Source of the DNA: Fidelibacterota bacterium
GTDB taxonomy: Bacteria; Fidelibacterota; SORT01
DNA length: 64,000 nt
Assembly: GCA_022571215.1 (NCBI GenBank)
Contig: JACZYG010000004.1
Location: 1 to 64,000 of the forward strand
Direction: 5' to 3'
Part shown: positions 4,472 through 56,332 of the stretch, piece after piece
Layout: the number at the start of each line of letters is the position of its first letter
How positions within the stretch are numbered: the stretch's first letter is position 1
The notes under the pieces: generated by a model
What the model was told of the DNA's origin: nothing
Seen by the model: only the letters and a program-made list of their open reading frames with translations
Database searches by the model: none
Translations under genes and position numbers: made by a program

Positions 4472-4738
4472 GATGTTAACTCTCCTCTCATTGTTAATCC
4501 CAAGGAACATAATAAGACTTACCTATCATGCACTCCGTGAGACATTCTTTAAATATTTTCCATCGATTCATTATTTATCATTTCCATGTGCAATATTCTC
4601 CGTAGCTGTGGCGTAGCTAAATTTGGTTCACCATGGCGTAGAATCGTTTAAAATAGTGATTAATGGAAATCTGCTGAAAGTGATACCAGATAACCCCAAA
4701 CCGCTTATTACATAAGGTTTTGAGGCTTGTTCAAAGAG

Positions 4739-4823
4739 TGCCGGGGGCGGGACTCGAACCCGCATGGTCTAAACGACCGAGGGATTTTAAGTCCCTTGCG
4801 TCTACCAGTTTCGCCACCCCGGC
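4739..4823 (-). tRNA. tRNA-Leu (anticodon TAA)
   Basis: 85 nt on the minus strand. The acceptor stem GCCGGGG pairs with CCCCGGC, discriminator A. The anticodon loop CTTAAAA gives TAA. A long variable arm (CGGTCGTTTAGACCATG region) and the T-loop GTTCGAGTC are present. No CCA is encoded. The 3' end faces the phage-like genes. Confidence 0.95.
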
Positions 4824-4827
4824 GATG

Positions 4828-4900
4828 AGGCGACGACCGGATTCGAACCGGTGAATGAGGGTTTTGCAAACCCTTCCCTTAGCCATTTGGGTACGTCGCC
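4828..4900 (-). tRNA. tRNA-Cys (anticodon GCA)
   Basis: 73 nt on the minus strand, four bases from the tRNA-Leu. GGCGACG pairs with CGTCGCC, discriminator T as is usual for tRNA-Cys. The anticodon loop TTGCAAA gives GCA, and the T-arm contains GTTCGAATC. Confidence 0.95.
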
Positions 4901-4950
4901 TTAAAAAGAAATCCGCCAAGTCAAGGGCGGATTACCTATCATACTCCCAG

Positions 4951-5023
4951 AGCGAGAGACGAGATTCGAACTCGCGACCACCACGTTGGCAACGTGGAGC
5001 TCTACCAGCTGAGCTACTCTCGC
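4951..5023 (-). tRNA. tRNA-Gly (anticodon GCC)
   Basis: 73 nt on the minus strand. GCGAGAG pairs with CTCTCGC, discriminator T. The anticodon stem CCACG/CGTGG encloses TTGCCAA, anticodon GCC. It is the promoter-proximal member of the three-tRNA cluster. Confidence 0.95.
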
Positions 5024-5073: not shown

Positions 5074-6219
5074 TTAATCGAAAAGGAGTTCTTCTTCATC
5101 GTCATTTTTTACGGCTATGGGAAAATGCGAGCGAAAATTGTTCACGTAAGATTCTATTTGTTCATCGGAAGAATATCCACCGGTAAGCTTCAGAAGTGAG
5201 AATGAGGCGGTATTTGAGTAACTTCGTATCTCTTCTCTGATTTTTAGTTGCTTGGCTTTCAATTCTTCTAATTTGGCAGCATCTTGTTTGTTTTCTTCAT
5301 AGATTATTTCACGAGTTTTTCCTCTCAAACTCTCCTCTAATCGAGCAAGATTGACCTCAACTCTATTTAAATTTAACAACTTCGTGGTGATTTCATTTAT
5401 TTCCTTTCGGCGATCGGTCAGTTTCAATTCTATGATACCGAGACTCTGTCCCTCGTATCCGGCTTTATAAATTCCATGATTATTTACTAATTTAGGTCTG
5501 ATCATTCTTTTTCCGTCATGACCACCGATAAACAATTCCACTTCTGATAATGAATCGGCTAATGCGGTTTCTACTTTGAGCGGCATGTGAGTTAAAGCGA
5601 TTATCAGGTCCACTCTGTCCTTTATCTTTGAAATAACGTCTATTGCCGAGACATAAGGATCATGGACAACTACGGATTCAGGATAATTCCCGCCTTCCCA
5701 TGCTAAACCGATGATACCCACATTAAATCCATTTTGACTCCAAATAACATATTCATCGAAAATGGGTTTGTTATATTCGGCTGAGTATATATTGGATGAA
5801 ATGAACGGAAATTTTGCTCTATCCCTTAGAGATAAGAGGTAATCGAGTCCTAATATGAAATCGTCATCGCCGATATTCAGAGCGGTAGTATTCATTTCAT
5901 TGAAAGCATCTACAATTAGGCTTGCCTTCGCCGCCATTTCATTTCGTGTAGAGTCTTTAAGATATTCTTTTTGAAAGAAAAGATCACCGCTATCAAGTAT
6001 CAGGATCTGCTTACCTTCCGAGCGAAGTTTGTTTATGTAATCCGCTTTCCTGGCAAGACCGCCGGAGGGATCAGTCTTTCAACCACATGGCTCTACTTCA
6101 CCGTTGACACTCCCGGTGAACACTAATGAAAATTCTACCGGAGAGAATTCGGTTTCTTCCTTACAAGTCCATCCAAAGGCTAACAGAGAAATCAGCGTGA
6201 CACTGAAAATATAATTCAT
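5074..6219 (-). CDS. Candidate selenoprotein: UshA-like metallophosphoesterase lipoprotein (Sec47)
   Basis: An open frame from ATG 6219 to 5074 is interrupted by one TGA at 6081-6079, codon 47. Both sides are the same protein in the same frame. The N-terminus is a lipoprotein-type signal (LLAFGWTC, lipid Cys19). Next comes NGEVEPCG-UGA-KTDPSGGLARK, where relatives carry CGCK followed by a GGLAR-type run, so UGA replaces the second Cys. Phosphoesterase motifs follow: GD (78-79), IGDDDF (116-121), LTHMP (His211) and GGHDG (His234). Residues about 274-337 look coiled-coil. A SECIS-like hairpin follows the UGA. Read as ordinary stop, only residues 95-381 from an internal ATG (5937) would be annotated, without signal peptide or the Cys motif. 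Nonsense mutation is the alternative. Substrate unknown; UshA relatives hydrolyse nucleotides outside the cytoplasm. Confidence 0.82.
6049..6081 (-). promoter_or_regulatory. SECIS-like hairpin directly after in-frame UGA
   Basis: Eighteen bases after the UGA (6081-6079) an apical loop GGTCTT (6060-6055) is closed by GGC/GCC and, after a bulged A, by CC/GG. A lower ATCC/GGAT pair is possible (6071-6068 with 6043-6040). In the E. coli fdhF SECIS the loop is AGGUCU and starts 17 bases after UGA, so both loop sequence and spacing match closely. The fdhF comparison is from memory of the published element. Confidence 0.7.
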
Positions 6220-10359: not shown

Positions 10360-11199
10360 TCAGTTCAATAATTCCGCAAGTAAGCGTTCTACCATCAATC
10401 GCCTGTAGTCAGCGCTGCCGCGAACATCTGTGATAGGCGAACACTCATTTACAGCTATTATGGCAGCTTTTTCGACTAATTCTGACGATCTGATGCTTCC
10501 CTCAAGGAATCTTTCAGTTTTGTAAGCTCTGATCACCGTTGGAGCGACTGCCCCCAATGCTATCCGCAGATCTTTGAATTTATTTTCATTTGAATTAAAA
10601 ATCACTGAAAGTGACACTATCGCAATTGCCATCGATTCTCGTTGTCCGAGTTTATAAAATCTGCTGAATGTTGATGATGGCAGCGCATTAAAGGAGATTT
10701 CGCTTAATATTTCATCCGGTTTTAATACAGTTTTTCCGGGTCCCTTAAAGAATTTATCTATATTCACCCGCCTAATACCTTTAACCGATTCAAGTTTTAG
10801 TTTAGCTCCGAGAGCATACAGCGGTGGAACTAAATCCGCTGCAGGCGATGCGTTACAAATATTTCCGCCTATAGTCGAACGATTACGAATTTGAACCGCC
10901 GCGAAGTTTTTTGCCGCTTGATTGAGATTTGGAGCGTTCTTTGCCAATAATTTAGATTCAAGAAGATCACTCACAGTTGTCAGGCTGCCTATTTTGATGA
11001 CATTATCCTTTTTTACTATCCCTCTAAGAGACTTTATCCCCTTTGCGTCTACGATCATTCCAGTCTTGAATCCGAAATGCTCTATCTTGACCATAAGATC
11101 GCTCCCGCCGGCAAGTATTTGACCGTTATTTTTCTTAAACTGAGGCTGAGCGACTAATTCCAACAATTCTTTCTTCTCGATCGGCATGATATAGATCAT
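10360..11199 (-). CDS. FAD-binding subunit of molybdenum hydroxylase (YgfM/CoxM family)
   Basis: 279 aa from the ATG at 11199, which overlaps the previous stop as ATGA and has GGAGAAG just upstream; an upstream in-frame ATG at 11262 is rejected. The FAD-binding motifs of the CO dehydrogenase/xanthine dehydrogenase medium subunit are present: AGGSDLM (30-36) and TIGGNICNASPAADLVP (109-125). It would pass electrons from the 2Fe-2S subunit to its acceptor. Coupling to the 2Fe-2S and molybdenum subunits in the same operon supports a three-subunit enzyme acting on a purine or related heterocycle. Confidence 0.9.
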   Translation of the reverse strand: MIYIMPIEKKELLELVAQPQFKKNNGQILAGGSDLMVKIEHFGFKTGMIVDAKGIKSLRGIVKKDNVIKIGSLTTVSDLLESKLLAKNAPNLNQAAKNFAAVQIRNRSTIGGNICNASPAADLVPPLYALGAKLKLESVKGIRRVNIDKFFKGPGKTVLKPDEILSEISFNALPSSTFSRFYKLGQRESMAIAIVSLSVIFNSNENKFKDLRIALGAVAPTVIRAYKTERFLEGSIRSSELVEKAAIIAVNECSPITDVRGSADYRRLMVERLLAELLN

Positions 11200-11672
11200 C
11201 GCTTCTTCTCCAACCGAAGAGCTTTCTCTATCGACTTGAAAATTTTCACATAACCGGTGCATCTACACAGGTTTCCCGCCACAACAGAACGAATTTCCGA
11301 ACTTTTCAGATCAGGGTTGGAATTCAGCGCCGCGCGCGCAGTCATAATGAACCCCGGGATGCAAAAACCACATTGCACTCCATGTTCGTCAACGAACCCC
11401 TGCTGGATGCTGTCGAGCTCGCCATTGATCTCAAGACCTTCTATTGTCGTGATCTTCGCGGCGTCAGCCTCCACAGCCAGTATCAAACATGAATTCAGCG
11501 CTTTTCCATCCATGATGATCGCGCATGAGCCGCATTCACCCTCTCCACACGCTTCCTTCGTACCGGTAAGACGCAGATCATCTCTGATAAAATCGAGTAA
11601 CCGTTGACGACTGTCCACTGTTTTATAGTATTTTACTCCATTTACCTCAAGTGATATATTATACTTATGCAT
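11196..11672 (-). CDS. 2Fe-2S subunit of molybdenum hydroxylase
   Basis: 158 aa from the ATG at 11672, which overlaps the previous stop by eight bases and has GGAAGGTG upstream. A plant-type ferredoxin cluster uses Cys42, 47, 50 and 62. The helical cluster domain uses CGFC (101/104) and CRC (136/138) in CRCTGY. This is the standard small subunit of xanthine dehydrogenase/CO dehydrogenase-type enzymes, carrying electrons from the molybdenum centre to FAD. Its length is typical for the family. Confidence 0.94.
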   Translation of the reverse strand: MHKYNISLEVNGVKYYKTVDSRQRLLDFIRDDLRLTGTKEACGEGECGSCAIIMDGKALNSCLILAVEADAAKITTIEGLEINGELDSIQQGFVDEHGVQCGFCIPGFIMTARAALNSNPDLKSSEIRSVVAGNLCRCTGYVKIFKSIEKALRLEKKR

Positions 11673-12894
11673 ATTCACCTTCCAACACCTTCTCAACATT
11701 GGAAATATCGGGTTCTATGATAGTCGCTTTTAAGTCGCCGATTGCCGCTTCAGGCGCTTTTAATCCGTGTCCTGTGAGCAGTAATACTACTCTATCACCT
11801 TTCGATAACACATTGATACCAAGCGACTTTATCAATCCGGCTAATGTTGCGGCTGCGGAAGGTTCAACAAATACGCCGGATGTTTTTGTGAGTGTCCTGA
11901 CAGCTTCAAGAATCTCTTCATCTGAAACGCTGAGAGCATATCCGTTTGTTTCTTTCACCGCGCGCAAGGCTTTCACTCCGTCACGAGGTTTGCTTACCGC
12001 GATACCATCGGCGATTGTCTTCCCGGATGCTGTTCCGATCTCATTTCCGCTCTCAAACGCCTTGACAATAGAGTTTGCGCCATCGGCTTGCACGGCAATG
12101 AGACGAGGCATCTCAGAGATTACCCCAATTTCAATCAAGTCCTTCAAACCTTTATGAACACCGCTGATTATACAGCCGTCACCAACAGGAACGACTATAG
12201 CGTCGGGAGGATTCCACATTAGCTGTTCGCAGATCTCATAAGCGACCGTCTTCTTTCCTTCGGAAAGATACGGGTTGAATCCCGAGCTCCTGTTATACCA
12301 TCCGAACTTTTCCGTCGCCTTAATGCAAAGGTCGAATGCATCATCATAACTCCCCTTTACTTTAAACACATCTGCTCCATACAAAAGCATTTGCGCTACC
12401 TTTGCTTTCGGAGCTGTTTCAGGCACGAATATCTTGACTTTTGCTCCTATAGACGCGCCGAGACCGGATAACGAAGAGGCTGCATTTCCGGTGGAAGCGC
12501 AGGTGATCACATCCGCTTTATTCTCTATGCTTCGCGCCAGTGCAATAGCGGTTGCCCTGTCTTTCAGTGAAGCAGTCGGATTTTGTGTATCGTCTTTTAG
12601 CGATAGGTAAGGCATTCCGAGCAACTCTTTCAGCCTCTCGCTTTCAATCATTGGAGTCCAACCTACATTCAATCCGCCAAACGAAATCGGCTCTACAGGC
12701 AAGAGCGGCGCATATCTCCATATTGACAGCTCATTGCCTTTTTTGACTTCATATCTATGCCACTCTTCACCGGCGGCGGCATAATCATAGATAACTTCCA
12801 AATTACCGCCGCATTTTGCGCACAGGTAATGGATCCCTTCTTTTTCAAAGGTTTCACCGCATTCAATACACTCTAAATTTGTTACGAAAGTCAC
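11665..12894 (-). CDS. Threonine synthase-like PLP enzyme in purine operon
   Basis: 409 aa with a GTG start. An N-terminal zinc ribbon uses Cys9, 12, 25 and 28, as in many threonine-synthase-like proteins. The fold-type II PLP Lys is K111 in NPTASLKDR, and the substrate loop is ASTGNAASS. The body resembles threonine synthase, but no other threonine-pathway genes are present and it is embedded in the selenium/purine operon. In E. coli that locus has ygeX (2,3-diaminopropionate ammonia-lyase), also fold-type II, so a C-N or C-O lyase step on a purine-derived amino acid is plausible. True substrate unknown; a genuine threonine synthase is the alternative. Confidence 0.75.
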   Translation of the reverse strand: MTFVTNLECIECGETFEKEGIHYLCAKCGGNLEVIYDYAAAGEEWHRYEVKKGNELSIWRYAPLLPVEPISFGGLNVGWTPMIESERLKELLGMPYLSLKDDTQNPTASLKDRATAIALARSIENKADVITCASTGNAASSLSGLGASIGAKVKIFVPETAPKAKVAQMLLYGADVFKVKGSYDDAFDLCIKATEKFGWYNRSSGFNPYLSEGKKTVAYEICEQLMWNPPDAIVVPVGDGCIISGVHKGLKDLIEIGVISEMPRLIAVQADGANSIVKAFESGNEIGTASGKTIADGIAVSKPRDGVKALRAVKETNGYALSVSDEEILEAVRTLTKTSGVFVEPSAAATLAGLIKSLGINVLSKGDRVVLLLTGHGLKAPEAAIGDLKATIIEPDISNVEKVLEGEYA

Positions 12895-12901
12895 AAGATG
12901 C

Positions 12902-13876
12902 TCACATCGTCAATGCCATTATAGCTTTGCAACTGTGCAGTCTATTTTCAGCTTCCTGATATACGACCGATTGTTCAGAGTCGATCACCTCGTCAGTGAC
13001 TTCGTTGTTCCTGTCGGCAGGGAGGCAATGCATATATACCGAATCCTCCTTCGCAGCCTTCATCAGGTCAGCGTCGCATATCCAATCCTTATATTTCTTT
13101 GATAATTCAATTGATTCTTCAGGTTTTTCGAATAAATCGATACATCCCCAACTCTTCGGATAGACTACATCCGCATCCTCGAACGCTGCTTCCATCGAAT
13201 CAACCAGTTCAAATTTCGTGCCGTTTTCTTCCGCGAATTTTTCCGCCTTGGCTATCAGCTCCGGCATTAGCTTGAATTCGGGAGGATGAGCAAGCACTAC
13301 ATCCATGCCGAAACGCGGCATTAGAGAAATCAATCCCTGCGGAACAGACATCGGTTTCGCGTATGACGGAGCGTATGCCCAACTAACTGCTATTTTCCTT
13401 CCTTTCAGGTCATTCCCGTATATTTCCCGAATAGTCATCAAATCCGCAAGAGTCTGACAGGGATGATCAATATCGCACTGCATATTTATGACAGGTATTC
13501 CGGCGTGTTCAGCGACTTCACGCAGATACTTGTTACCTTCCCCCGGAATAAGGTCATGACGAATCGCTATGCCGTGTCCGTATCCTGACAGAATAATTCC
13601 CATATCCTTCGGACTCTCTCCGTGCGCTATTTGGGAAGTTTCCGAATCTATGAAATGAGCATGACCGCCTAATTGAGTCATACCCGCTTCAAACGAATTT
13701 CTTGTACGCGTCGATTTATCGAAAAAGAGCATGAAAAGAGTCTTATCCGGTAGCTGCCTGTGCGGTCTGCCGTTCTTAAAATCATCTTTCAATTCACCCG
13801 CAACCCGGAGCAGTTCCTCGAGCTCGTCATTCGACCAATCAGCAGTCTCAATGTAATCTTTACCCTTTAAATCCAA
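12902..13876 (-). CDS. ygeW: YgeW-type carbamoyltransferase
   Basis: 324 aa. It belongs to the aspartate/ornithine carbamoyltransferase superfamily: the carbamoyl-phosphate loop KSTRTRNSF (STRTR at 55-59), HPCQ (138-141) and HCLPADR (283-289). HCLPAD rather than the HCLPAHR of ornithine carbamoyltransferase, together with neighbours YgeY, SsnA and YgfK, points to YgeW. It may run in the phosphorolytic direction to yield carbamoyl phosphate from a ureido-type purine breakdown product. It is shorter than my recollection of E. coli YgeW (about 396 aa). Gap of 26 bp to ygeY upstream. Confidence 0.85.
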   Translation of the reverse strand: MDLKGKDYIETADWSNDELEELLRVAGELKDDFKNGRPHRQLPDKTLFMLFFDKSTRTRNSFEAGMTQLGGHAHFIDSETSQIAHGESPKDMGIILSGYGHGIAIRHDLIPGEGNKYLREVAEHAGIPVINMQCDIDHPCQTLADLMTIREIYGNDLKGRKIAVSWAYAPSYAKPMSVPQGLISLMPRFGMDVVLAHPPEFKLMPELIAKAEKFAEENGTKFELVDSMEAAFEDADVVYPKSWGCIDLFEKPEESIELSKKYKDWICDADLMKAAKEDSVYMHCLPADRNNEVTDEVIDSEQSVVYQEAENRLHSCKAIMALTM

Positions 13877-13902
13877 ATATTCTTCTCCCTTTCTACCGAT
13901 TA

Positions 13903-15087
13903 TTAATTCTCTTTGAAAAACAGCGGATATCCGGCGTAAAACGCGGCCGCTTTAATGAGGTCATCTATGCTCACTTGGTCTTCGACTGAATGAGTTACCT
14001 CCTCGACCGACGGTCCGAGTCCGAATGTGGGAATCCCCTCAATACCCGCTGTGTAGACTCCATTAGTACTGAATGTCCACTTGTCAACTACAGGTTCCTC
14101 ACCGAATATCTCTTTGTACGCCGCTTCGGCGGATTTCAGAGCATGATGATCCGCATCAAGCTGCCATGTCGGATAGTATTTTTCCATCCCGTCTTCTTTA
14201 CCGGTATAGGAGGTCGCCTTATATTCCGACAGTTCTACAATAGCGTCATCACCTGCGATCTCTCTTATCTCGGCTGTTGCCAACTCTTTTGTCTCACCCG
14301 CGGTGAGCCGTCTGTCTATGTATATTACCGCTTTGTCGGGAACCGCATTCAATGATGCCGTGTCTACCTCCATCTTCGTGACCGCAACCGTTCCCTTACC
14401 AAGGAAATCATCGTCCCGCAGATTCCGGTTCAACTCTTCGATCCCTTTTACGATATTAACCATCTTGTATATTGCGTTCTCCCCTCTTTCGGGCGCGCTT
14501 GCGTGGCATGATATTCCCCTTGTCGTGACGGTCAGTTCCATCCTACCGCGCTGACCGCGATAGATTTTCAATCCGGTGCATTCACCGAGAACAACCACAT
14601 CGGGGCGTAAACCGTCCTCGGTTATCACGGTTTTGTAAGCAAGACCGTCTGATGATTCCTCCTGTGCCGAGCCGACAACATATAAAGTAACCCCTTCAAG
14701 AAGACCCATCTTCTTTGACAGAGCCGCGCCGTATACCATTGATGCTAATCCGCCCTTATTGTCGCCCGTTCCCCGTCCGTATATTATGCCGTTCTCTACC
14801 TTACCTTTGTACGGATCATGCGCCCAAGCATCCGGATCGCCAATCCCTACCGTATCCATGTGAGAGTCATAAAGAATCACTTTCTCTCCGTCACCTAATT
14901 TACCTATTACATTTCCGAAGCTGTCTATCCTTACATCATCGTAACCGAGTTTCTCCATCTCGCTCTTCGTGCGTTCCGCGACACCCTTTTCTTCGCAGCT
15001 CGGGCTGGGTATCTCGACTATTTCTCTCAGAAAGGCGACCATATCCTCCTGTAACAGAGCAGCCTCTTCTATATACTTCTTGTTCAT
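13903..15087 (-). CDS. ygeY: YgeY-type M20 hydrolase (selenium-metabolism-linked)
   Basis: 394 aa with GGAG before the ATG. M20 metallohydrolase motifs are SHMDTVG, GRGTGDNKGG and AQEESSDG, plus a late VTHSVEDQVS. The dimerisation domain includes RGISCHASAPE. YgeY belongs to a subfamily long noted for co-occurrence with SelD and selenium-dependent molybdenum hydroxylases, and linked to anaerobic purine breakdown. It probably cleaves an amide or ureido bond in a ring-opened purine product. It lies between the cysteine-synthase-like gene (10 bp) and ygeW (26 bp). Confidence 0.88.
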   Translation of the reverse strand: MNKKYIEEAALLQEDMVAFLREIVEIPSPSCEEKGVAERTKSEMEKLGYDDVRIDSFGNVIGKLGDGEKVILYDSHMDTVGIGDPDAWAHDPYKGKVENGIIYGRGTGDNKGGLASMVYGAALSKKMGLLEGVTLYVVGSAQEESSDGLAYKTVITEDGLRPDVVVLGECTGLKIYRGQRGRMELTVTTRGISCHASAPERGENAIYKMVNIVKGIEELNRNLRDDDFLGKGTVAVTKMEVDTASLNAVPDKAVIYIDRRLTAGETKELATAEIREIAGDDAIVELSEYKATSYTGKEDGMEKYYPTWQLDADHHALKSAEAAYKEIFGEEPVVDKWTFSTNGVYTAGIEGIPTFGLGPSVEEVTHSVEDQVSIDDLIKAAAFYAGYPLFFKEN

Positions 15088-15097
15088 TCAATTCTCC

Positions 15098-16150
15098 TCA
15101 ATCTACTATAGTCCATGCGGATTGATATTTATCTAATTCCTGTTTTGTGTAATCATCCATCGGATGCTCCCTGTCAGGAATCTCCACTACTTTCGGTTCT
15201 CCCATCAATTCGGTGGAAAAATAGCGCTGACCCGTGTCATTCAGCATCGTAACGATACGTTTGGCTTCCGGGAACTTTTTGGCAAGTTTAATCGCCGCGA
15301 CAACATTACAACCGCTGGAAATTCCGCAAAGCAGACCTTCTTCTCTCGCCAACCGCCGAGCCATTTCGAGTGATTCATCAGAAGTCGTGATAACGATACC
15401 GTCCAACAGTTCGAGATGCAAGTTTCTGGGTACGAATCCGTCCCCGATTCCTTCTATCTTATGCTCACCCCATTCTCTTTTTGAAAGTAAAGGACATTCG
15501 GAGGGTTCGACCGCATAGAGTTGAGCGTTTGAGCCTACGCTCTTTAGATATTTTCCTATTCCGGTCAAAGTGCCGCCCGTTCCCTGAGAGGCGACGAATA
15601 TGTCAATATCGCCTCCCATCTGTTCCCATATTTCAGGACCCGTTGTCGCCTCATGAGCGGCGATATTATCGCTGTTCTCGAACTGCGCCGGTACCCAATA
15701 TTTATCAGGGTCAGCGCTTCGAATTTCCTCCAATTTTTCGAGAGCAAGGTCTACATCGCTCTCACCGCCCGGCGTATAGACCATTTCCGAACCGTAGGCG
15801 ATGTCCAATTTTTTACGCTCCTCGCTCATACCTACCGGCATTACGATAATACATTTATATCCCTTTACCGCCGACAGGAACGAGCAGGCTATCCCCGCGT
15901 TTCCCGTGGAGCATTCAAGAACTGTCATTCCGGGTCGCAAATCTCCCCTTTTTTCCGCTTCCTCGAACATCTGTTTGTATATCCTGTCCTTCAAGCTCCC
16001 CGACATGCTGTACCATTCTATTTTGCCATAAATGTCCGCGCCCGCTTCTTCGCTTATTTTATTCAGCTTAACGAGCGGTGTCCGACCAACCATGTCAAGA
16101 ACACTCTCCGTTGCCTTTGATGTTGCATTCCAATTGATATTAACCGTCAT
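15098..16150 (-). CDS. Cysteine synthase/CBS-like PLP enzyme in purine operon
   Basis: 350 aa, AGGAG before the ATG. Fold-type II PLP protein: Schiff-base Lys54 in SGSLKDR, phosphate-binding loop GTGGTLTG near 190, and C-terminal GISSGCN. The substrate loop reads ECSTGNAG instead of the TSGNTG usual in O-acetylserine sulfhydrylases, so ordinary cysteine synthesis is doubtful. It occupies the place expected for ygeX between ssnA and ygeY. Possible roles are ammonia or sulfide/selenide exchange on an amino acid released from purines. No serine acetyltransferase is nearby. Confidence 0.78.
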   Translation of the reverse strand: MTVNINWNATSKATESVLDMVGRTPLVKLNKISEEAGADIYGKIEWYSMSGSLKDRIYKQMFEEAEKRGDLRPGMTVLECSTGNAGIACSFLSAVKGYKCIIVMPVGMSEERKKLDIAYGSEMVYTPGGESDVDLALEKLEEIRSADPDKYWVPAQFENSDNIAAHEATTGPEIWEQMGGDIDIFVASQGTGGTLTGIGKYLKSVGSNAQLYAVEPSECPLLSKREWGEHKIEGIGDGFVPRNLHLELLDGIVITTSDESLEMARRLAREEGLLCGISSGCNVVAAIKLAKKFPEAKRIVTMLNDTGQRYFSTELMGEPKVVEIPDREHPMDDYTKQELDKYQSAWTIVD

Positions 16151-16159
16151 CCACAGCTC

Positions 16160-17476
16160 CTAATTGATTCTTTCCCAGAGCTCTTTTGACGCTCTGCGCG
16201 ATTTCTCTAAAATTTCTTCCTCATTGATACTCACTAAGTTATAATCCTTAACTATAAATTCTCCCTTGATCATCACATTCCTGGGATGCTCCCCTCTTAA
16301 CCCGTAAAACAAATGCGCATAAGCGTTTTCCGAATTCACCGGTGTCGGAGAGTCATAATCATACATCAGAATATCAGCTTCCGCTCCCGCTTTAATTATT
16401 CCTAATTTCACTCCAAGGTAACCTGAAACCGCGCAAGCGTTTTCACTCAATATCATTCTGAGGTCATCTACATTTAACGGTCCGTTATTTTGCTTATCGT
16501 GGTTCAATAGAGCAAAATGCGCTTCCTCCAAAATGTTATTGGTGTAACTGTCAGTCCCGAGCGCAATCCGAACGCCGTTTTTCAGCAGGTCAGGCACTCC
16601 CGCGCGACCCACGCCGTTATTCGCATTCGACTGCGGTTGATGCGTAACAAGCGCTCCCGATTTTTTCAACAATTCGACATCGCCATCAACTAAATAGACG
16701 CAGTGAGCGGCAATTGACTTTTCGCTTAACAGCCCTTTTTCGCTTAATCGCTGAACAACACCGACATTGTACTTTCGGATCGAATCCTCCAAATCAAACC
16801 GATCCTCCCCTACATGAATATGAAAACCGTTTCCGCTGTTAGCCTCAAGGGCGGAGTCCAACGACTTGTCAGAAAGAGTGAACGAGGCATGAAGTCCGAA
16901 CAGACCGGCTAAATCATCCGATTTGCCATTTACGGAACTAATGAAATCTGCATTCTCTTTTATTCCGGCTTCCCTTGAGGTATCACCGTCCCTGTCAGAA
17001 ACCTCATAACACAAAACGCCTCTCATGCCGACTTCCTTCAAAGCGTCGGATATGAGATTCAGGCTTCCGCTAATCGCATTCGGGCTTGAGTGATGATCTA
17101 TCACGGTGGTTACTCCCCATTTAGCGCTCTCCATTAGACCTACCATCGCCGATAAATAAACATCATCAGGAGTCAGCGCTTTGTCGAGTTTCCACCAGAC
17201 CTTCTCAAGAATCTCAACGAAATTTTCAGGAGCCTCTTTTGGATACGGCATCCCTCTCGCAAACGAGCTGTACAGGTGCATATGAGCGTTCACGAGACCG
17301 GGAGTCACAACCGCTCCCTTTGCGTCTAAAACTTCATTCTCTTTATATTTTTCTATCAGTTCTGCCGTTTTTCCAACTTCTTTTATCTTTGCGCCTTCAA
17401 TTACCATTGCCCCGTCCGGAATAAAAGGATTTAGACTGTCACCGGTAATCAGTGCCGCGTTGGTGATCAATATCAA
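16160..17476 (-). CDS. ssnA: SsnA-type aminohydrolase
   Basis: 438 aa, TTG start overlapping the ygfK stop (TTGA) with GAGGAG upstream. Amidohydrolase superfamily: metal-binding HMHLY near residue 66, HIHVGED near 220, AHCVYL near 258, and GTDSY near 307. This matches SsnA/TRZ-ATZ enzymes that deaminate heterocycles. SsnA is a fixed member of the ygeW-ygeY-ygfK locus; guanine or another aminopurine is a likely substrate type, inferred from family and context. Length close to that expected for E. coli SsnA. Confidence 0.88.
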   Translation of the reverse strand: MILITNAALITGDSLNPFIPDGAMVIEGAKIKEVGKTAELIEKYKENEVLDAKGAVVTPGLVNAHMHLYSSFARGMPYPKEAPENFVEILEKVWWKLDKALTPDDVYLSAMVGLMESAKWGVTTVIDHHSSPNAISGSLNLISDALKEVGMRGVLCYEVSDRDGDTSREAGIKENADFISSVNGKSDDLAGLFGLHASFTLSDKSLDSALEANSGNGFHIHVGEDRFDLEDSIRKYNVGVVQRLSEKGLLSEKSIAAHCVYLVDGDVELLKKSGALVTHQPQSNANNGVGRAGVPDLLKNGVRIALGTDSYTNNILEEAHFALLNHDKQNNGPLNVDDLRMILSENACAVSGYLGVKLGIIKAGAEADILMYDYDSPTPVNSENAYAHLFYGLRGEHPRNVMIKGEFIVKDYNLVSINEEEILEKSRRASKELWERIN

Positions 17477-19437
17477 GCGAATGACTCCTCTAAAACAGTT
17501 CGGACAAAATTTGTTCTACCGCTTTTTTTAACAGAATCGAGCAGCAGTTTCATTACATGATAGGTTTTCAGAGAAAGCTCGTGACCTTCGGGACAATCAT
17601 TTTTCGCTTCGGAAGCGATGACAGTTCCATCTTCAACATTCAGCTCAACAGAAATGTAAGCATCGCTAAATTCAGCAACTCCATTTTCCAGAACTATCAG
17701 TTTGAATTCCATTGAAGAGCCGCGCGCTAATATAACACTCTTTCCGTCTTCACCATAAACAACATATCCGTCTTCATCGGAATAAAGTTCAAACGTTTCA
17801 AGCGAACTGAAGAAGCGTGGTTTTTCAATGAAAGGACCTCCGTCTTCGGGACAGAAAACATCGCAGTTTCCGCATTCGTTGCAAAAGTCGGCGTAATTGG
17901 CAATCTGATGCCGCTTTTCGATCACCAAGGTACCGCCCGGAATCTCTTCCACCTTGGAGCCGTCAGATCTCAGCAGTGAATACGCTATTTCACCCGGGTT
18001 CACTTCGATATAAAAGTTGGAAACGTTCGGACAGACCGGTATGCATTTATCGCAATTTATACAATCGAACAGATGAAGTTTTGAGCCTATCTTCTTCGGT
18101 TCCAACCTGTTTTTTTCGCTCCTGTATCGAATATCAGCCGTGACCTTTTCGACTACGGATTCGGTGTTGACAATGACAGCATCTTCCCTGTTCGCAAGAT
18201 TATCGGCTGAAATTGATATAAATTCCTCGATATTTTTGGAGTCTTTTTCATTCATGTCTTCAGAAAGATTCTTGAGATACTTGCTCATTCTCCCGTAACC
18301 GCCGGGCAGCAGCAGATCGGTGCATACAGTCACGGGTACGAGTCCCATAGATACTGCATCGCTGAAATTATGTTGATCGATGCCTGCCGAGAAAGAGATC
18401 GGAAGAGCTCCTCCTATCGTTTCCCTGAACCGTTCAACAAGATTCATCGTGATGACGTGCAAAGGTTTTCCCGACATATACATGACTTCTTCATCCTCAA
18501 AATAGCTTCCGTGATTCAAAACTATAAGCGTGTTGCTGAATTTGACTCCGAAATTTCGTCCTTCTGTTTTAGCGGTATTCTCCAAACGCCCGACCATATC
18601 TATCGCTTGCTCAAACTGCATATCCGAGTCAAAGAATTTCTGCTCGGTTTTTATTTCGTTATATCCCATGACTTCATGCAGCAGTTCATCTACTCTTTCC
18701 TTGCCCAGAAGAGTAGGATTCATCTTCACGACCACGTCTATCGCCATCTCTGTCATAAGAAAAAGTGAAATTGATTCTATTTCATCGGCGGGGCAGCCGT
18801 GAAATGTGCTGAGAGTGACCGAGCTGCTGACTTCATCCGGATAATCCAAATCCTTATATTTTGCGAAAGCATTAGGAATTTCATTTCTAATTTCATCTAC
18901 ATGCTTTTTCGAGTCTTTCATAGAATTTATCCAATCGCGAATTTCAACCGATCGGATACCTTTAAGATCATATCCGACGCTCATATCGAACAGCGTATCG
19001 GCAGAAGCGCCGTCATCTCCAAGAACATCTTCATTCTTGAGGATCTCTATAAGCATCACGGCTGAGACGTATTCTTTCAGCGATTGTTCCAGCCGCAATT
19101 CCTGTGACCATTCGACATTATATCCGACGGTTGTTGCGTCAATACACGGTCTCGGAATTGATAACCGGTCATTTATCTGGACCGTTTTAAGCTCCATTAT
19201 CCTGCCTCCGCCTAACCACGAGAGGACAATATTTTGCGCCATCTGTGTATGCGGTCCCGCTGCCGGACCAAGCGGTGTCGAAGCTTTTTTACCGTTGAAG
19301 ATGACCGAATGATCAATTCCTTTTGTGGCTTTATACCATTTTTCTTTCGGCAGGCTAAATATACTTTGATCTTCTTCGTACTCGGTTAGCGCGGAACGCA
19401 ACAATGCGCCGAACGATGCCGGATGCAGCTCAACCAT
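17473..19437 (-). CDS. ygfK: YgfK-type iron-sulfur oxidoreductase, short form
   Basis: 654 aa. The N-terminal ~450 residues have the dihydropyrimidine/dihydroorotate dehydrogenase-like layout (TPLGPAAGPHTQMAQN, SVTLSTFHGCPADEIE, VVKMNPTLLG, SFSAGID). The C-terminal part carries two 4Fe-4S motifs: CINCDKCIPVCPN and CNECGNCDVFCPE. E. coli YgfK is about 1,030 aa because it also has a GltD-like FAD/NAD(P)H domain; that domain is absent here. An external electron carrier would then be needed. YgfK is genetically linked to anaerobic uric-acid breakdown and was earlier called a putative selenate reductase subunit. ATG overlaps the stop of the upstream gene. Confidence 0.88.
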   Translation of the reverse strand: MVELHPASFGALLRSALTEYEEDQSIFSLPKEKWYKATKGIDHSVIFNGKKASTPLGPAAGPHTQMAQNIVLSWLGGGRIMELKTVQINDRLSIPRPCIDATTVGYNVEWSQELRLEQSLKEYVSAVMLIEILKNEDVLGDDGASADTLFDMSVGYDLKGIRSVEIRDWINSMKDSKKHVDEIRNEIPNAFAKYKDLDYPDEVSSSVTLSTFHGCPADEIESISLFLMTEMAIDVVVKMNPTLLGKERVDELLHEVMGYNEIKTEQKFFDSDMQFEQAIDMVGRLENTAKTEGRNFGVKFSNTLIVLNHGSYFEDEEVMYMSGKPLHVITMNLVERFRETIGGALPISFSAGIDQHNFSDAVSMGLVPVTVCTDLLLPGGYGRMSKYLKNLSEDMNEKDSKNIEEFISISADNLANREDAVIVNTESVVEKVTADIRYRSEKNRLEPKKIGSKLHLFDCINCDKCIPVCPNVSNFYIEVNPGEIAYSLLRSDGSKVEEIPGGTLVIEKRHQIANYADFCNECGNCDVFCPEDGGPFIEKPRFFSSLETFELYSDEDGYVVYGEDGKSVILARGSSMEFKLIVLENGVAEFSDAYISVELNVEDGTVIASEAKNDCPEGHELSLKTYHVMKLLLDSVKKSGRTNFVRTVLEESFA

Positions 19438-21727
19438 TCTTCAACACCCCAATTCCTCTGAGGATTCGCTCAGGGGTCAGCGGCATTTCCAAGAATTGAA
19501 AACCGAGCGCATTTGAAACAGCGCTGACGACAGCGGCTCCTATCGGGATAATAGGAGGTTCACCCATACTCTTCGCGCCGTAGGGACCATCAGGTCCTAT
19601 CTCTTCCACGATGTGAGTTATGATTTTCGGAGTCTCTTCGGGATACGGCAAAATATAGTTGGAAAAATAGGGATTCATCAATATACCATCTTTGAATTGT
19701 AGGTCTTCATAAAGCGCATAGCCTATTCCCTGCACTATTCCCCCCTCCGCTTGCGCTCGAACCCCTTCGGGATTGATAGCTCTTCCTACATCGTGAGCGG
19801 CGACCACTTCCAACACCTCCGCCTTACCAGTAAGAGTGTCTACCCGGACTTTTACGGCATGCGCGGCAAAGGAGTATGCGAAATATGTGCTGCCCATCCC
19901 GGTTTTAATGTCCCATTGCGAATAAGGGGCTACCCACCAACCGGCTGCCGCTAATTTTTCGTTATTCAGGAATGCGTTTTCCGCCACGGCATCGAATGTG
20001 ACGCTTTTCCGTTTACCCGCTGTCGTGTACGCCCTGTCGTCTCTGAATACTACTTTGGACGGAGCGATTTTCAGAAGCCTGCCAGCCGCTTTGGATAACT
20101 GAGGTCTCAGTTGCTCCGCTGCGTTGAGAATTGCGTTACCGCTCATTATTGTGCTTCGCGAGGCTACCGTAGGACCGCTGTCCGGCACGTAACTCGTATC
20201 TACCTCCAATACCCGTATACGTTCCGTTTGAACACCGAACGCATCCGCCGCCATTTGAACGAGAGTAGTTCCCGAACCCTGACCCAATTCCGTTATTCCG
20301 ACTGCTACGGATATTGAGCCGTCCCTGTGGACTTGCACATGAGCGCCCGCGGCATCGAGATACCATCCCATCGCTCCGAGCGTATTTCCGTAGTGGATGC
20401 AGGCGGTTCCGACTCCTTCAACGTATCTGCTCTTCTGTTTCTTTCTTTTCCTGCTTTTCAGTAAACTCGATTCTTTGACAATTTTCAATGTCTCGGGCAG
20501 ACCGACGCTCCGACTCAGAAGTTGATTGGTAACAGTGCGTTTACCTTCCCGGAGAATATTTTTTTCGCGAAGTTCAATCGGGTCCATCCCCAATTCGTCT
20601 GCAAGAAGGTCCATTGTCCGCTCGATACCGAATGCTGATTGCGGAGCGCCGAACCCCCGAAACGCCCCTGATGGCGGGTGGTTCGTATAGCAGGCATAAG
20701 TATCAACCCTGACATTCGGAATCAGGTAAGGACCGGCGGCATGAACAACCGCCCTGAACATGACGACGGGCGACAGCGTAGCATATGCCCCCGCTGCCGC
20801 GTACTGCTCGGCAACCACTCCCACGAGTTTTCCGTTCTTTTTAGCGCCTAACTTATAATGCATTTCAAAAGGATGACGCTTACTCGAATAGATCGCATCC
20901 TCCGCCCTGCCCATTATTAATCTTACAGGCCGTCCCGTGATGACAGCAACTAACGCAACTCGAGAACATATTTCTGAAGGAACATCTTCCTTTCCTCCGA
21001 ACGCCCCGCCGGTCGCCGCTTGAACGATTTTCACCTTGTTATATTTTATCCCCAGCACTTCCGAAACAGAACGTTGAACATAGTACGGACATTGGATACT
21101 ACCGTAAATCGTGACTGAACCGTCCTTGTGCGGAACTACGACGGTTCCTAATGTTTCAAGATAGGCGTGTTCCTGATGTGGAGTTTTCAGATAAGCTTTA
21201 ACAGTCAGATCCGCATCTTTAAAAGGATCGGCATGATTGCCCCTACGAATCTTCAGGTGCGAAAGGACATTACCTCCGGGATGAATAAAATTCCGTTTGG
21301 AATTGAAACTTTTTTCTGCCGAATAAATGCCTCTGATCGGTTTGAGATCGAACCTGATTTTTGTTTCGGCGTTCTTAGCCTCTTCCTCCGTTTCAGCGGC
21401 GATTATCGCTACCGCGTCTCCCGCATATCGCACTTTTTCGTCCGCAAACAGTGGTTGGTCTTTGATTATCAACCCTATTTGATTCTCATGCGGCACATCC
21501 TTCGCCGTCAGCAAACTCACAACTCCGGATGATCTCTTCGCTTTTGACACATCCAGGTTCCTGAGATATGCGTGCGGGTGCGGACTTAAAACCATTTTGG
21601 CGTGAAGGAGATTGGGAAATTGTATGTCTTTTATGAAGTCCGTTCTGCCTGTGACTTTAGAATGGGCATCTATCCGCGGGATCGAATTGCCTACATAATT
21701 ATACTTAAATTTGTCTTTCTTGTTCAA
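19430..21727 (-). CDS. Molybdenum-binding subunit of selenium-linked molybdenum hydroxylase (XdhD-like)
   Basis: 765 aa, TTG start (MNKKDKFKYN) without a good Shine-Dalgarno; the family N-terminal VGNSIPRIDAHSKVTG starts at residue 12, so the start cannot be much later. Xanthine-dehydrogenase-type motifs are GGAFGGKED near 240, AFRGFGAPQSAFG near 360, ELGQGSGTT near 480, and the catalytic-Glu motif YGAKSMGEPP near 720. It hydroxylates a heterocycle using molybdopterin. With YgfK, SsnA, YgeY and YgeW alongside, the selenium-dependent group (purine hydroxylase/xanthine dehydrogenase-like) is likelier than CO dehydrogenase, and there is no AYRxSCR-type CO dehydrogenase motif. First gene of the operon. 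Confidence 0.9.
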   Translation of the reverse strand: MNKKDKFKYNYVGNSIPRIDAHSKVTGRTDFIKDIQFPNLLHAKMVLSPHPHAYLRNLDVSKAKRSSGVVSLLTAKDVPHENQIGLIIKDQPLFADEKVRYAGDAVAIIAAETEEEAKNAETKIRFDLKPIRGIYSAEKSFNSKRNFIHPGGNVLSHLKIRRGNHADPFKDADLTVKAYLKTPHQEHAYLETLGTVVVPHKDGSVTIYGSIQCPYYVQRSVSEVLGIKYNKVKIVQAATGGAFGGKEDVPSEICSRVALVAVITGRPVRLIMGRAEDAIYSSKRHPFEMHYKLGAKKNGKLVGVVAEQYAAAGAYATLSPVVMFRAVVHAAGPYLIPNVRVDTYACYTNHPPSGAFRGFGAPQSAFGIERTMDLLADELGMDPIELREKNILREGKRTVTNQLLSRSVGLPETLKIVKESSLLKSRKRKKQKSRYVEGVGTACIHYGNTLGAMGWYLDAAGAHVQVHRDGSISVAVGITELGQGSGTTLVQMAADAFGVQTERIRVLEVDTSYVPDSGPTVASRSTIMSGNAILNAAEQLRPQLSKAAGRLLKIAPSKVVFRDDRAYTTAGKRKSVTFDAVAENAFLNNEKLAAAGWWVAPYSQWDIKTGMGSTYFAYSFAAHAVKVRVDTLTGKAEVLEVVAAHDVGRAINPEGVRAQAEGGIVQGIGYALYEDLQFKDGILMNPYFSNYILPYPEETPKIITHIVEEIGPDGPYGAKSMGEPPIIPIGAAVVSAVSNALGFQFLEMPLTPERILRGIGVLKNG

Positions 21728-37270: not shown

Positions 37271-37753
37271 TCACTTTTTATATCGAATTTCTAGCTCTAA
37301 AAGCAGCGATTCCACGTCAAAAAAAAACTTTTCCGAACAACCCAAAATCCAAGAACTTATGCGGTTTCTGGGCATTTCACTGAGTAAAAAGACCGGTATT
37401 TTATTATAATACGCTACCGTGATTTCACCGTGAGTACCCCCTCCTTTGGCGGCATATTCATCCCATTTACATATCACATAGTCGGATTTTTCTGTAAGTT
37501 GATTCAAATCCCTCTCTATTATCCTATTCATAAGGGTTTTGAACTTATCTTCATCATCCTCTTTCCATTCTCTAAAGTGAAGCTTTTCCTCTTCGCTAAG
37601 CAGCTGGTTTATTTCTTCGTTCGGATTGAAAACTTCATGCCCAAGCCGCTCTTTCAGGAGCAAAGCGATCTCCTCCCGCCACCCTTTTCCCTGATCGGGA
37701 GCGTACTCCATTGCTCCGGATAAATAAGCCGTCTTTACGTTATTACTCAGAAT
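37271..37753 (-). CDS. Nucleoside 2-deoxyribosyltransferase-like protein, non-ATG start
   Basis: The first in-frame ATG (37711) would begin inside the conserved first strand. Reading upstream in the same frame adds KTAYLSGA before MEYAPDQGKGWR, exactly where relatives have a YLAG/YLSG strand. No ATG, GTG or TTG exists between that strand and the stop at 37759-37757, so translation probably starts at ATT (37753) or CTG (37750), with GGGAG of the ndk end as ribosome site. About 160 aa. A later motif is SDYVICKWDEYAAKGGGTHGE. It may handle nucleosides or NAD-like ribosides. Coupled to ndk, so nucleotide metabolism fits. Confidence 0.68.
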   Translation of the reverse strand: MLSNNVKTAYLSGAMEYAPDQGKGWREEIALLLKERLGHEVFNPNEEINQLLSEEEKLHFREWKEDDEDKFKTLMNRIIERDLNQLTEKSDYVICKWDEYAAKGGGTHGEITVAYYNKIPVFLLSEMPRNRISSWILGCSEKFFFDVESLLLELEIRYKK

Positions 37754-37756
37754 GAA

Positions 37757-38254
37757 TCACTCCCAGTGATGCCGTTGATCCGCTCTGTCGTACGTGACCA
37801 ACTCGTCATCTTTGAACCAAACCCCTACTTCGTACTTAGCCGCTTCCTTATCGGAGGATGCATGGATCACATTTCTGACGGCAGTTCCCGCCTCGTCGGA
37901 GTAAGCGTAACTGTGATGAGAGTAATCCCCCCGTATTGTCCCCGGTAAAGCGGATTTCGGTTCGGTAGCACCGCACATTTTTCTTACAACTTCAATTACC
38001 TCGTCACCTTCAAGCACCGCAGCGACGATCGGTCCTTCAGTCACAAAATTTATCAAAAGATTTCTGATTTTCTCACCCAATCTCGCTCCAATATCTTCTT
38101 CGGTATAGTGTTCTCCGGCGATTTCTTTCCCCGCATGAAGCATCTTTAAACCTATAATTTTAAGCCCCGCTCGCTCGAACCGGGAAAATATTTCTCCCGT
38201 AAGCGCCCTCGATACGCCATCCGGCTTTATGAGCACAAGTGTTTTTTCAATCAT
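37757..38254 (-). CDS. ndk: Nucleoside diphosphate kinase
   Basis: 165 aa, longer than the usual ~140. EKTLVLIKPDGVSR is the N-terminal family pattern, the active-site His is in RNVIHASSD, and GTIRGDYS precedes it. The additional residues sit in the middle (IGARLGEKIRNLL) and at the C-terminus (DRADQRHHWE). It transfers the gamma-phosphate between nucleoside triphosphates. The stop lies immediately upstream of the deoxyribosyltransferase-like gene. Confidence 0.96.
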   Translation of the reverse strand: MIEKTLVLIKPDGVSRALTGEIFSRFERAGLKIIGLKMLHAGKEIAGEHYTEEDIGARLGEKIRNLLINFVTEGPIVAAVLEGDEVIEVVRKMCGATEPKSALPGTIRGDYSHHSYAYSDEAGTAVRNVIHASSDKEAAKYEVGVWFKDDELVTYDRADQRHHWE

Positions 38255-56160: not shown

Positions 56161-56191
56161 GCGTTCAAATCGTACCGATTCGATGATTCAA

Positions 56192-56325
56192 CTTCCTCCT
56201 ATCCGGACTCTGACCGTCGGCGTAAGAGTTTCACTTACTCAGTCCCTCTAAAACCTTAGAGGGAGTCGCGGGCTTTTCCTATTTGGAAATCACCGCCGGT
56301 GAGGAATTCCGCCTCGCCCCGGAAG
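56192..56325 (-). promoter_or_regulatory. FMN riboswitch (RFN element)
   Basis: On the minus strand the conserved parts are in order: GGGGCGAGGCGGAATTCC, CACCGGCGGTGA, AGCCCGCGA, a variable CCCTCTAAGGTTTTAGAGGG hairpin, ACGCCGACGGTCAGAGTCC and GGATAGGAGGAAG. It senses flavin mononucleotide and lowers rib operon expression. Followed by a terminator before ribD. Confidence 0.96.
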
Positions 56326-56332
56326 CCGAATA

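Follow-up and report, generated by a model that had tools for sequence, protein, structure and literature searches.

The window, the 64,000-nucleotide stretch of DNA from a marine bacterium analysed here, carries on its minus strand at positions 5074–6219 a gene for a predicted UshA-like selenoprotein of 381 codons followed by TAA, when TGA is translated as selenocysteine (Sec). The translation contains exactly one TGA, at codon 47 (6079–6081) in the context EPCG-U-KTDPSGGLARK, which bears out the initial annotation of a 381-codon frame broken only by this UGA. The codon for Cys45, the partner residue within the Cys-Gly-Sec motif, lies at 6085–6087. Cys45 is conserved in aligned homologues: it is Cys in 117 of 117 aligned family members, most of which were picked by the motif itself, and in nearly all homologues from a motif-independent protein search. 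The GGLARK element (codons 53–58, 6046–6063) is conserved together with CGU and overlaps the apex of a candidate SECIS hairpin. The amino terminus (6163–6219) has the sequence of a signal peptide with Cys19 as a possible lipidation site; this region has low pLDDT in the AlphaFold2 model, and clearer lipoboxes, such as AVGC and VIAC, are found in relatives. A standard gene caller reports only the 287-residue ORF that starts at codon 95 (M95; 5074–5937), and the first 94 residues are lost from automated annotation as had been anticipated.

A minus-strand tRNA-Gly/Cys/Leu cluster (4738–5023) lies directly downstream of the selenoprotein gene. Its order is identical in the four of four family genomes examined, indicating that the locus is vertically inherited. 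The tRNA cluster adjoins a minus-strand phage remnant (558–4510) whose short genes include one for a terminase large subunit (phrog_675, 2.3e-53). The minus strand at 10360–21727, about 4 kb away from the selenoprotein gene, resembles the selenium-linked purine-catabolism cluster of E. coli. It encodes YgeY (TIGR03526, 507.7 bits, over the cut-off), a YgeW-like carbamoyltransferase that scores below the cut-off, and xanthine-dehydrogenase-type FAD, 2Fe-2S and large subunits; an SsnA-like amidohydrolase and YgfK-like proteins were recognized by eye only. An FMN riboswitch (104 bits) is located on the minus strand at 56187–56330.

A protein search of 100 related genomes returned matches in 98, and for most of these the top match was inspected at the nucleotide level. 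Among homologues from the phylum (Neomarinimicrobiota) recovered by motif-independent search, codon 47 is TGA in 63 and a Cys codon (C-x-C) in 17, the Cys or Sec expected from the initial annotation. Two homologues have neither motif, with CPTC in L210 and no motif in the paralogue L221, and no other residue occurs at the Sec codon of an otherwise intact motif among the phylum homologues read. The genome that encodes L221 (G023), the paralogue without CGU, also holds an intact Sec copy, and a Sec form in another genome (L220, G088) has GGLAGR replacing GGLARK. Among close relatives, TGA occupies codon 47 in a same-genus genome (L004; ~80% protein identity) and in L005 and L006 (same family, two other genera). 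The codon is TGC in L003, also of the same genus. A maximum-likelihood tree of 80 proteins requires a minimum of four U/C switches, one of them between sister species of the window's genus. In L003 the SECIS apex codons GGC GGT CTT GCC AGG persist beside TGC and the lower stem is altered, a pattern that fits a recent Sec-to-Cys change. SelA and SelB co-occur with 61 of 63 Sec forms versus 3 of 17 Cys forms (Fisher p 5e-11); this association is phylogenetically non-independent, with only two informative contrasts on the tree, and is therefore given little weight.

The family extends beyond the phylum. A DNA-pattern scan of GTDB contigs gave at least 119 matches, and among the matches listed 103 have TGA and 16 have Cys. 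The taxa among the matches listed include Myxococcota, Acidobacteria, Desulfobulbaceae, Krumholzibacteria and Planctomycetes, and this spread indicates that the family is widespread. The invariance of CGU and GGLxR among the pattern matches (L051–L169) reflects how these were selected and carries no weight as evidence. Six of the 119 matches listed (L072, L086, L088, L125, L148 and L149) are short chance frames and were rejected. No locus in GTDB or viral contigs was recovered by a related-locus search with the single protein.

A bacterial SECIS hairpin is predicted at 6038–6073 on the minus strand, spanning nucleotides 9–44 counted from the U of UGA, with a minimum free energy (MFE) of −12.8 kcal/mol. 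Its apical loop, GGUCUU (6055–6060), starts 18 nt after the UGA and caps an upper stem of 7 bp in which one A is bulged; G22 and U27 of the loop may pair, and the UGA-to-loop spacing is 18–19 nt. The bacterial SECIS model has a loop of 3–9 nt with G in the first two loop positions, an upper stem of 4–16 bp, a spacing of 16–37 nt and an MFE of at most −7.5 (PMC13188914), and the window hairpin agrees with the published model on every point. It is unlike the hairpin of E. coli fdhF. The hairpin energy is unexceptional (z −1.0), and the SECIS was assessed from per-sequence base-pair probabilities compared with synonymous shuffles. The window hairpin forms its apical helix with a probability of 0.995, versus a mean of 0.10 for the shuffles, only 0.95% of which reach that value. 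Averaged over genes, the same probability is 0.55 in the Sec group, 0.09 in shuffles and 0.02 in the Cys group. Codon usage at the apex follows the same division: codon 53 is GGC in 139 of 150 Sec genes (35% elsewhere in those genes) and codon 54 is GGT in 125 of 150 (25% elsewhere). The GGC-GGT pair is present in 80% of the 150 Sec genes, where the glycine codon usage of each gene would predict 7.3%, and in 10% of 20 Cys genes with the same spacing. These codon and helix figures are descriptive, as the sequences are related to one another. RNAalifold did not find a consensus fold for the 150 aligned SECIS regions, probably because the lower stem is unconserved and a Ser or Pro codon at position 56 alters the closing pair. 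The conclusion that the predicted SECIS hairpin exists and is maintained by synonymous selection rests on codon bias and base-pair probabilities and not on energy.

The selenocysteine apparatus is complete in this genome, where selA, selB, selC and selD, the genes to which the initial annotation had looked for a check, are all found. SelA is encoded at C33:99209-100570 (565.7 bits), and SelB (338 bits) adjoins it on the same contig. SelD (C12:64146-65069, locus L040; 353 bits) begins 146 bp past the window end. SelD, too, is a selenoprotein; its frame contains a TGA within SSGGUACK, in the stretch MKRININEKIQITKFSSSGGUACK. The genome also has a tRNA-SeC with anticodon tca that scores 66 bits (gathering score 47). 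UGA-47 would be decoded by SelB with Sec-tRNA(UCA), brought in by the in-frame SECIS hairpin 18 nt downstream, and the ribosome would then read the codon as selenocysteine.

Two other explanations of the interrupted frame were weighed. The first holds that the gene is a pseudogene, contains a sequencing error, or ends at a genuine stop, with a shorter protein made from codon 95; a standard 287-residue ORF is indeed available for this purpose. Coding is nevertheless conserved on both flanks of the TGA, with the protein conserved both before and after codon 47 and a dN/dS of ~0.12–0.14 for codons 48–381 versus same-genus genes. The SECIS codons are under selection, and TGA is kept across the family and phylum and exchanged only for Cys codons, which leaves this explanation highly improbable. 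The conservation of TGA from a same-genus genome to dozens across the phylum rules out a pseudogene, a fresh nonsense mutation or a sequencing error at 6079–6081, the last with no recourse to reads. Only one other overlap-free read-through frame exists in the whole window, in a nucleoside diphosphate kinase gene (37274–38254, minus strand) where TGA is followed by 162 open codons in frame and looks like a normal stop. Because the sole other frame of this kind is an ordinary kinase stop, the open frame past codon 47 is not due to chance. Wholesale reassignment of UGA as a sense codon, for which the one in-frame TGA could be cited, is more improbable still and is refuted by the full Sec apparatus and by the use of TGA as an ordinary stop that ends 18 of the 49 large ORFs in the window. 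The Sec machinery, the Cys/Sec homologues and the hairpin under synonymous selection support the reading of UGA as selenocysteine first suggested by the initial annotation. From these comparative sequence data, we consider it very likely that UGA-47 is decoded as Sec and that the protein belongs to the UshA-like CxU family.

The best NCBIfam match of the protein is NF041198 (UshA_like_PCGU), with 238.2 bits (E 1.6e-70) over 353 residues and a curated cut-off of 275. The window protein has the same PCG-U-K...GGLARK motif, UshA-like domain and Sec/Cys exchange as the UshA-like CxU selenoprotein (COG0737) that this model describes. It differs in scoring below the cut-off and in lacking the C-terminal multiheme cytochrome of the model; the match stops at position 354 of 519, and there is no CxxCH in the protein. 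All eight of the short Marinimicrobia proteins tested score 202–250 bits, under the cut-off, and a long homologue with hemes scores 287 bits. The heme region of L113 matches model positions 362–519, the multiheme cytochrome part. NF049981 (UshA-like selenoprotein family 2) is a weak match to the N-terminal domain at 43 bits, below its cut-off of 140, and its motif is CxxU, whereas the window protein has CxU. The second-best NCBIfam match is the SoxB thiosulfohydrolase (TIGR04486; 74.7 bits, 4.7e-21), far from the 550-bit cut-off and with the metal ligands of the superfamily not kept in the window protein. The UshA profile matches at 58.9 bits, and Pfam gives no match above cut-off (Metallophos E 0.17).

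The UshA-like CxU selenoprotein was listed in the 2008 GOS survey of the ocean with 76 sequences and was among the commoner selenoproteins there (PMC2398784). The major families said in that survey to lack a Cys-based redox motif are UshA-like, SelD and FdhA (PMC2398784). UshA-like CxU selenoproteins are also listed in reviews from 2022 and 2026, and the reviews found give no function for them. A literature search that covered few subscription journals found no discussion of metal-ligand loss, heme fusion or a rhodanese/MauE operon for the family. The family is thus already known, and the window gene is a short, heme-less branch missed by the current annotation model.

The AlphaFold2 model of the protein has a mean pLDDT of 92.9. 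The closest solved folds are the UshA and CD73 5′-nucleotidases, with 3ivd the best match (Foldseek E 1.4e-22, TM 0.66 by query). The metallophosphoesterase-domain fold is common to these enzymes and the window protein, but sequence identity is 16–20% and the C-terminal substrate-binding domain of UshA, which binds the nucleotide, is absent; residues 278–365 are mostly long helices with no Pfam match. The first β-strand comprises residues 28–35, which places the former D-x-H (S37, N39) and Cys45-Gly46-Sec47 together on the loop after the strand. Phosphoesterase motifs, as reported in the initial annotation, are partly present. Alignment with 2z1a and with the canonical UshA encoded in the same genome, which has all ligands, shows that D-x-H has become S-x-N, GNHE has become GDDD and the terminal GHxH has become GHDG. 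We take the di-metal ligands of E. coli UshA to be D41, H43, D84, N116, H217, H252 and Q254, and the aligned positions in the window protein are S37, N39, D79, D118, H211, H234 and G236. Of 117 family members, 41 retain Asp at the position of UshA D41; His is found at H43 in 30, at H217 in 30 and at H252 in 36, and Asn is not among the common residues at N116. No ligand position is retained in more than 61% of members, and most are kept by about a third or fewer. D79, D118, H211 and H234 are retained in part or whole in the window's own family and could, judged by alignment, still hold one metal. The site-2 ligands are also lost in other Marinimicrobia that keep CGU, for example in L007 with VLANVDD and RSKSG.

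In relatives, the gene has candidate redox partners. In many Marinimicrobia it abuts or overlaps, often by 4 nt, the gene for a membrane-anchored rhodanese (PF00581), and the rhodanese gene adjoins a MauE/DoxX gene that also encodes a CGC motif; L132 and L053 are examples of loci with the operon. At L132:4991-6071 (coordinates with the selenoprotein gene placed on the plus strand), rhodanese and MauE/DoxX are fused in one protein, and the MauE part of this fusion and its sister proteins has a CGCF motif. Outside Marinimicrobia, about one-third of the complete pattern matches listed have a fused C-terminal cytochrome of the c554 type with four CxxCH (PF13435). The window's genome encodes a second UshA-like protein (C54:1291-2802, locus L170) that has Cys in place of Sec (ENCGCPEHPLGALEKR) and carries tetraheme c554 and LysM domains. 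The motif of this protein reads CGC, not CGU, and its stop codon overlaps a thioredoxin/AhpC-TSA-like gene. Homologues of the rhodanese and MauE proteins were not found in the window's family (five genomes), although they were recovered from positive-control genomes.

The initial annotation placed a redox or metal site in an exported enzyme. The canonical metal ligands are not conserved, which tips the balance from metal hydrolysis toward redox or sulfur chemistry as the inferred catalytic role. The ligands are unconserved, CG(U/C)...GGLxR is kept, and relatives have a cytochrome fusion or a rhodanese-MauE/DoxX operon, and for these reasons an exported thiol/selenol redox or sulfur-handling protein is favored over a phosphoesterase, at about an even chance of being correct. 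The product would be exported and probably membrane-anchored, with the fold of the N-terminal half of the UshA 5′-nucleotidase and Cys45-Gly46-Sec47 just past the lost D-x-H ligands. A reversible selenylsulfide between Cys45 and Sec47 would trade electrons or sulfane sulfur with thiol partners of the cell envelope. Candidates for this role in relatives are the tetraheme cytochrome where it is fused and the rhodanese and MauE/DoxX where they share the operon; the former phosphoesterase fold would provide the scaffold and the binding pocket. Disulfide potentials of about −130 to −200 mV have been measured for CGC and other CxC motifs (PMC3173608). Counting against a redox role, the window protein has no cytochrome domain and keeps D79, D118, H211 and H234, and its own family has no rhodanese/MauE homologue.

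An alternative is that the selenoprotein is still a metal-dependent hydrolase in which Sec47, Cys45 or both replace D-x-H at site 1 and D79, D118, H211 and H234 hold metal 2. The closest characterized matches, SoxB and UshA, are metal hydrolases, the site-2 positions are kept in the window's family (with D118 in place of Asn), and CGU follows closely after the lost D-x-H in the sequence. Most other members have nonetheless lost the site-2 ligands and kept CGU, the UshA substrate domain is missing, and the fused hemes and the rhodanese/MauE neighbors point elsewhere, which makes a surviving hydrolase unlikely. A SoxB-like sulfur protein, in which the degenerate site and the selenol would act on an S-thiosulfonate or persulfide carried by rhodanese or another periplasmic partner, draws on SoxB being the best NCBIfam match after the family's own model and on the rhodanese (PF00581) and DoxX/MauE genes in the operon of relatives. 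The low SoxB score, the superfamily ligands that are not kept and the lack of rhodanese/MauE homologues in the window's own family place its probability on the same low level. A further reading is that a metallophosphoesterase fold, its di-metal site having decayed, gave rise to an exported protein for selenol/thiol transfer of electrons or sulfur, with Cys-Gly-Sec as its reaction center and with partners that differ by lineage; we propose this tentatively, as slightly less than an even prospect. The recruitment of partners lineage by lineage, be it a fused tetraheme cytochrome, rhodanese with MauE/DoxX, or none, is offered as a possibility that also falls just short of even. We know of no redox members of the metallophosphoesterase fold.

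Genes of the short Marinimicrobia branch, which scores under the model cut-off, are probably truncated in database entries as a result. Within one genus, the pair of sister species with Sec and Cys is a convenient natural experiment, and the lost metal ligands, the kept CGU and the redox gene partners together give a concrete, testable functional hypothesis. If true, these proteins would constitute a redox selenoprotein class on the metallophosphoesterase fold.
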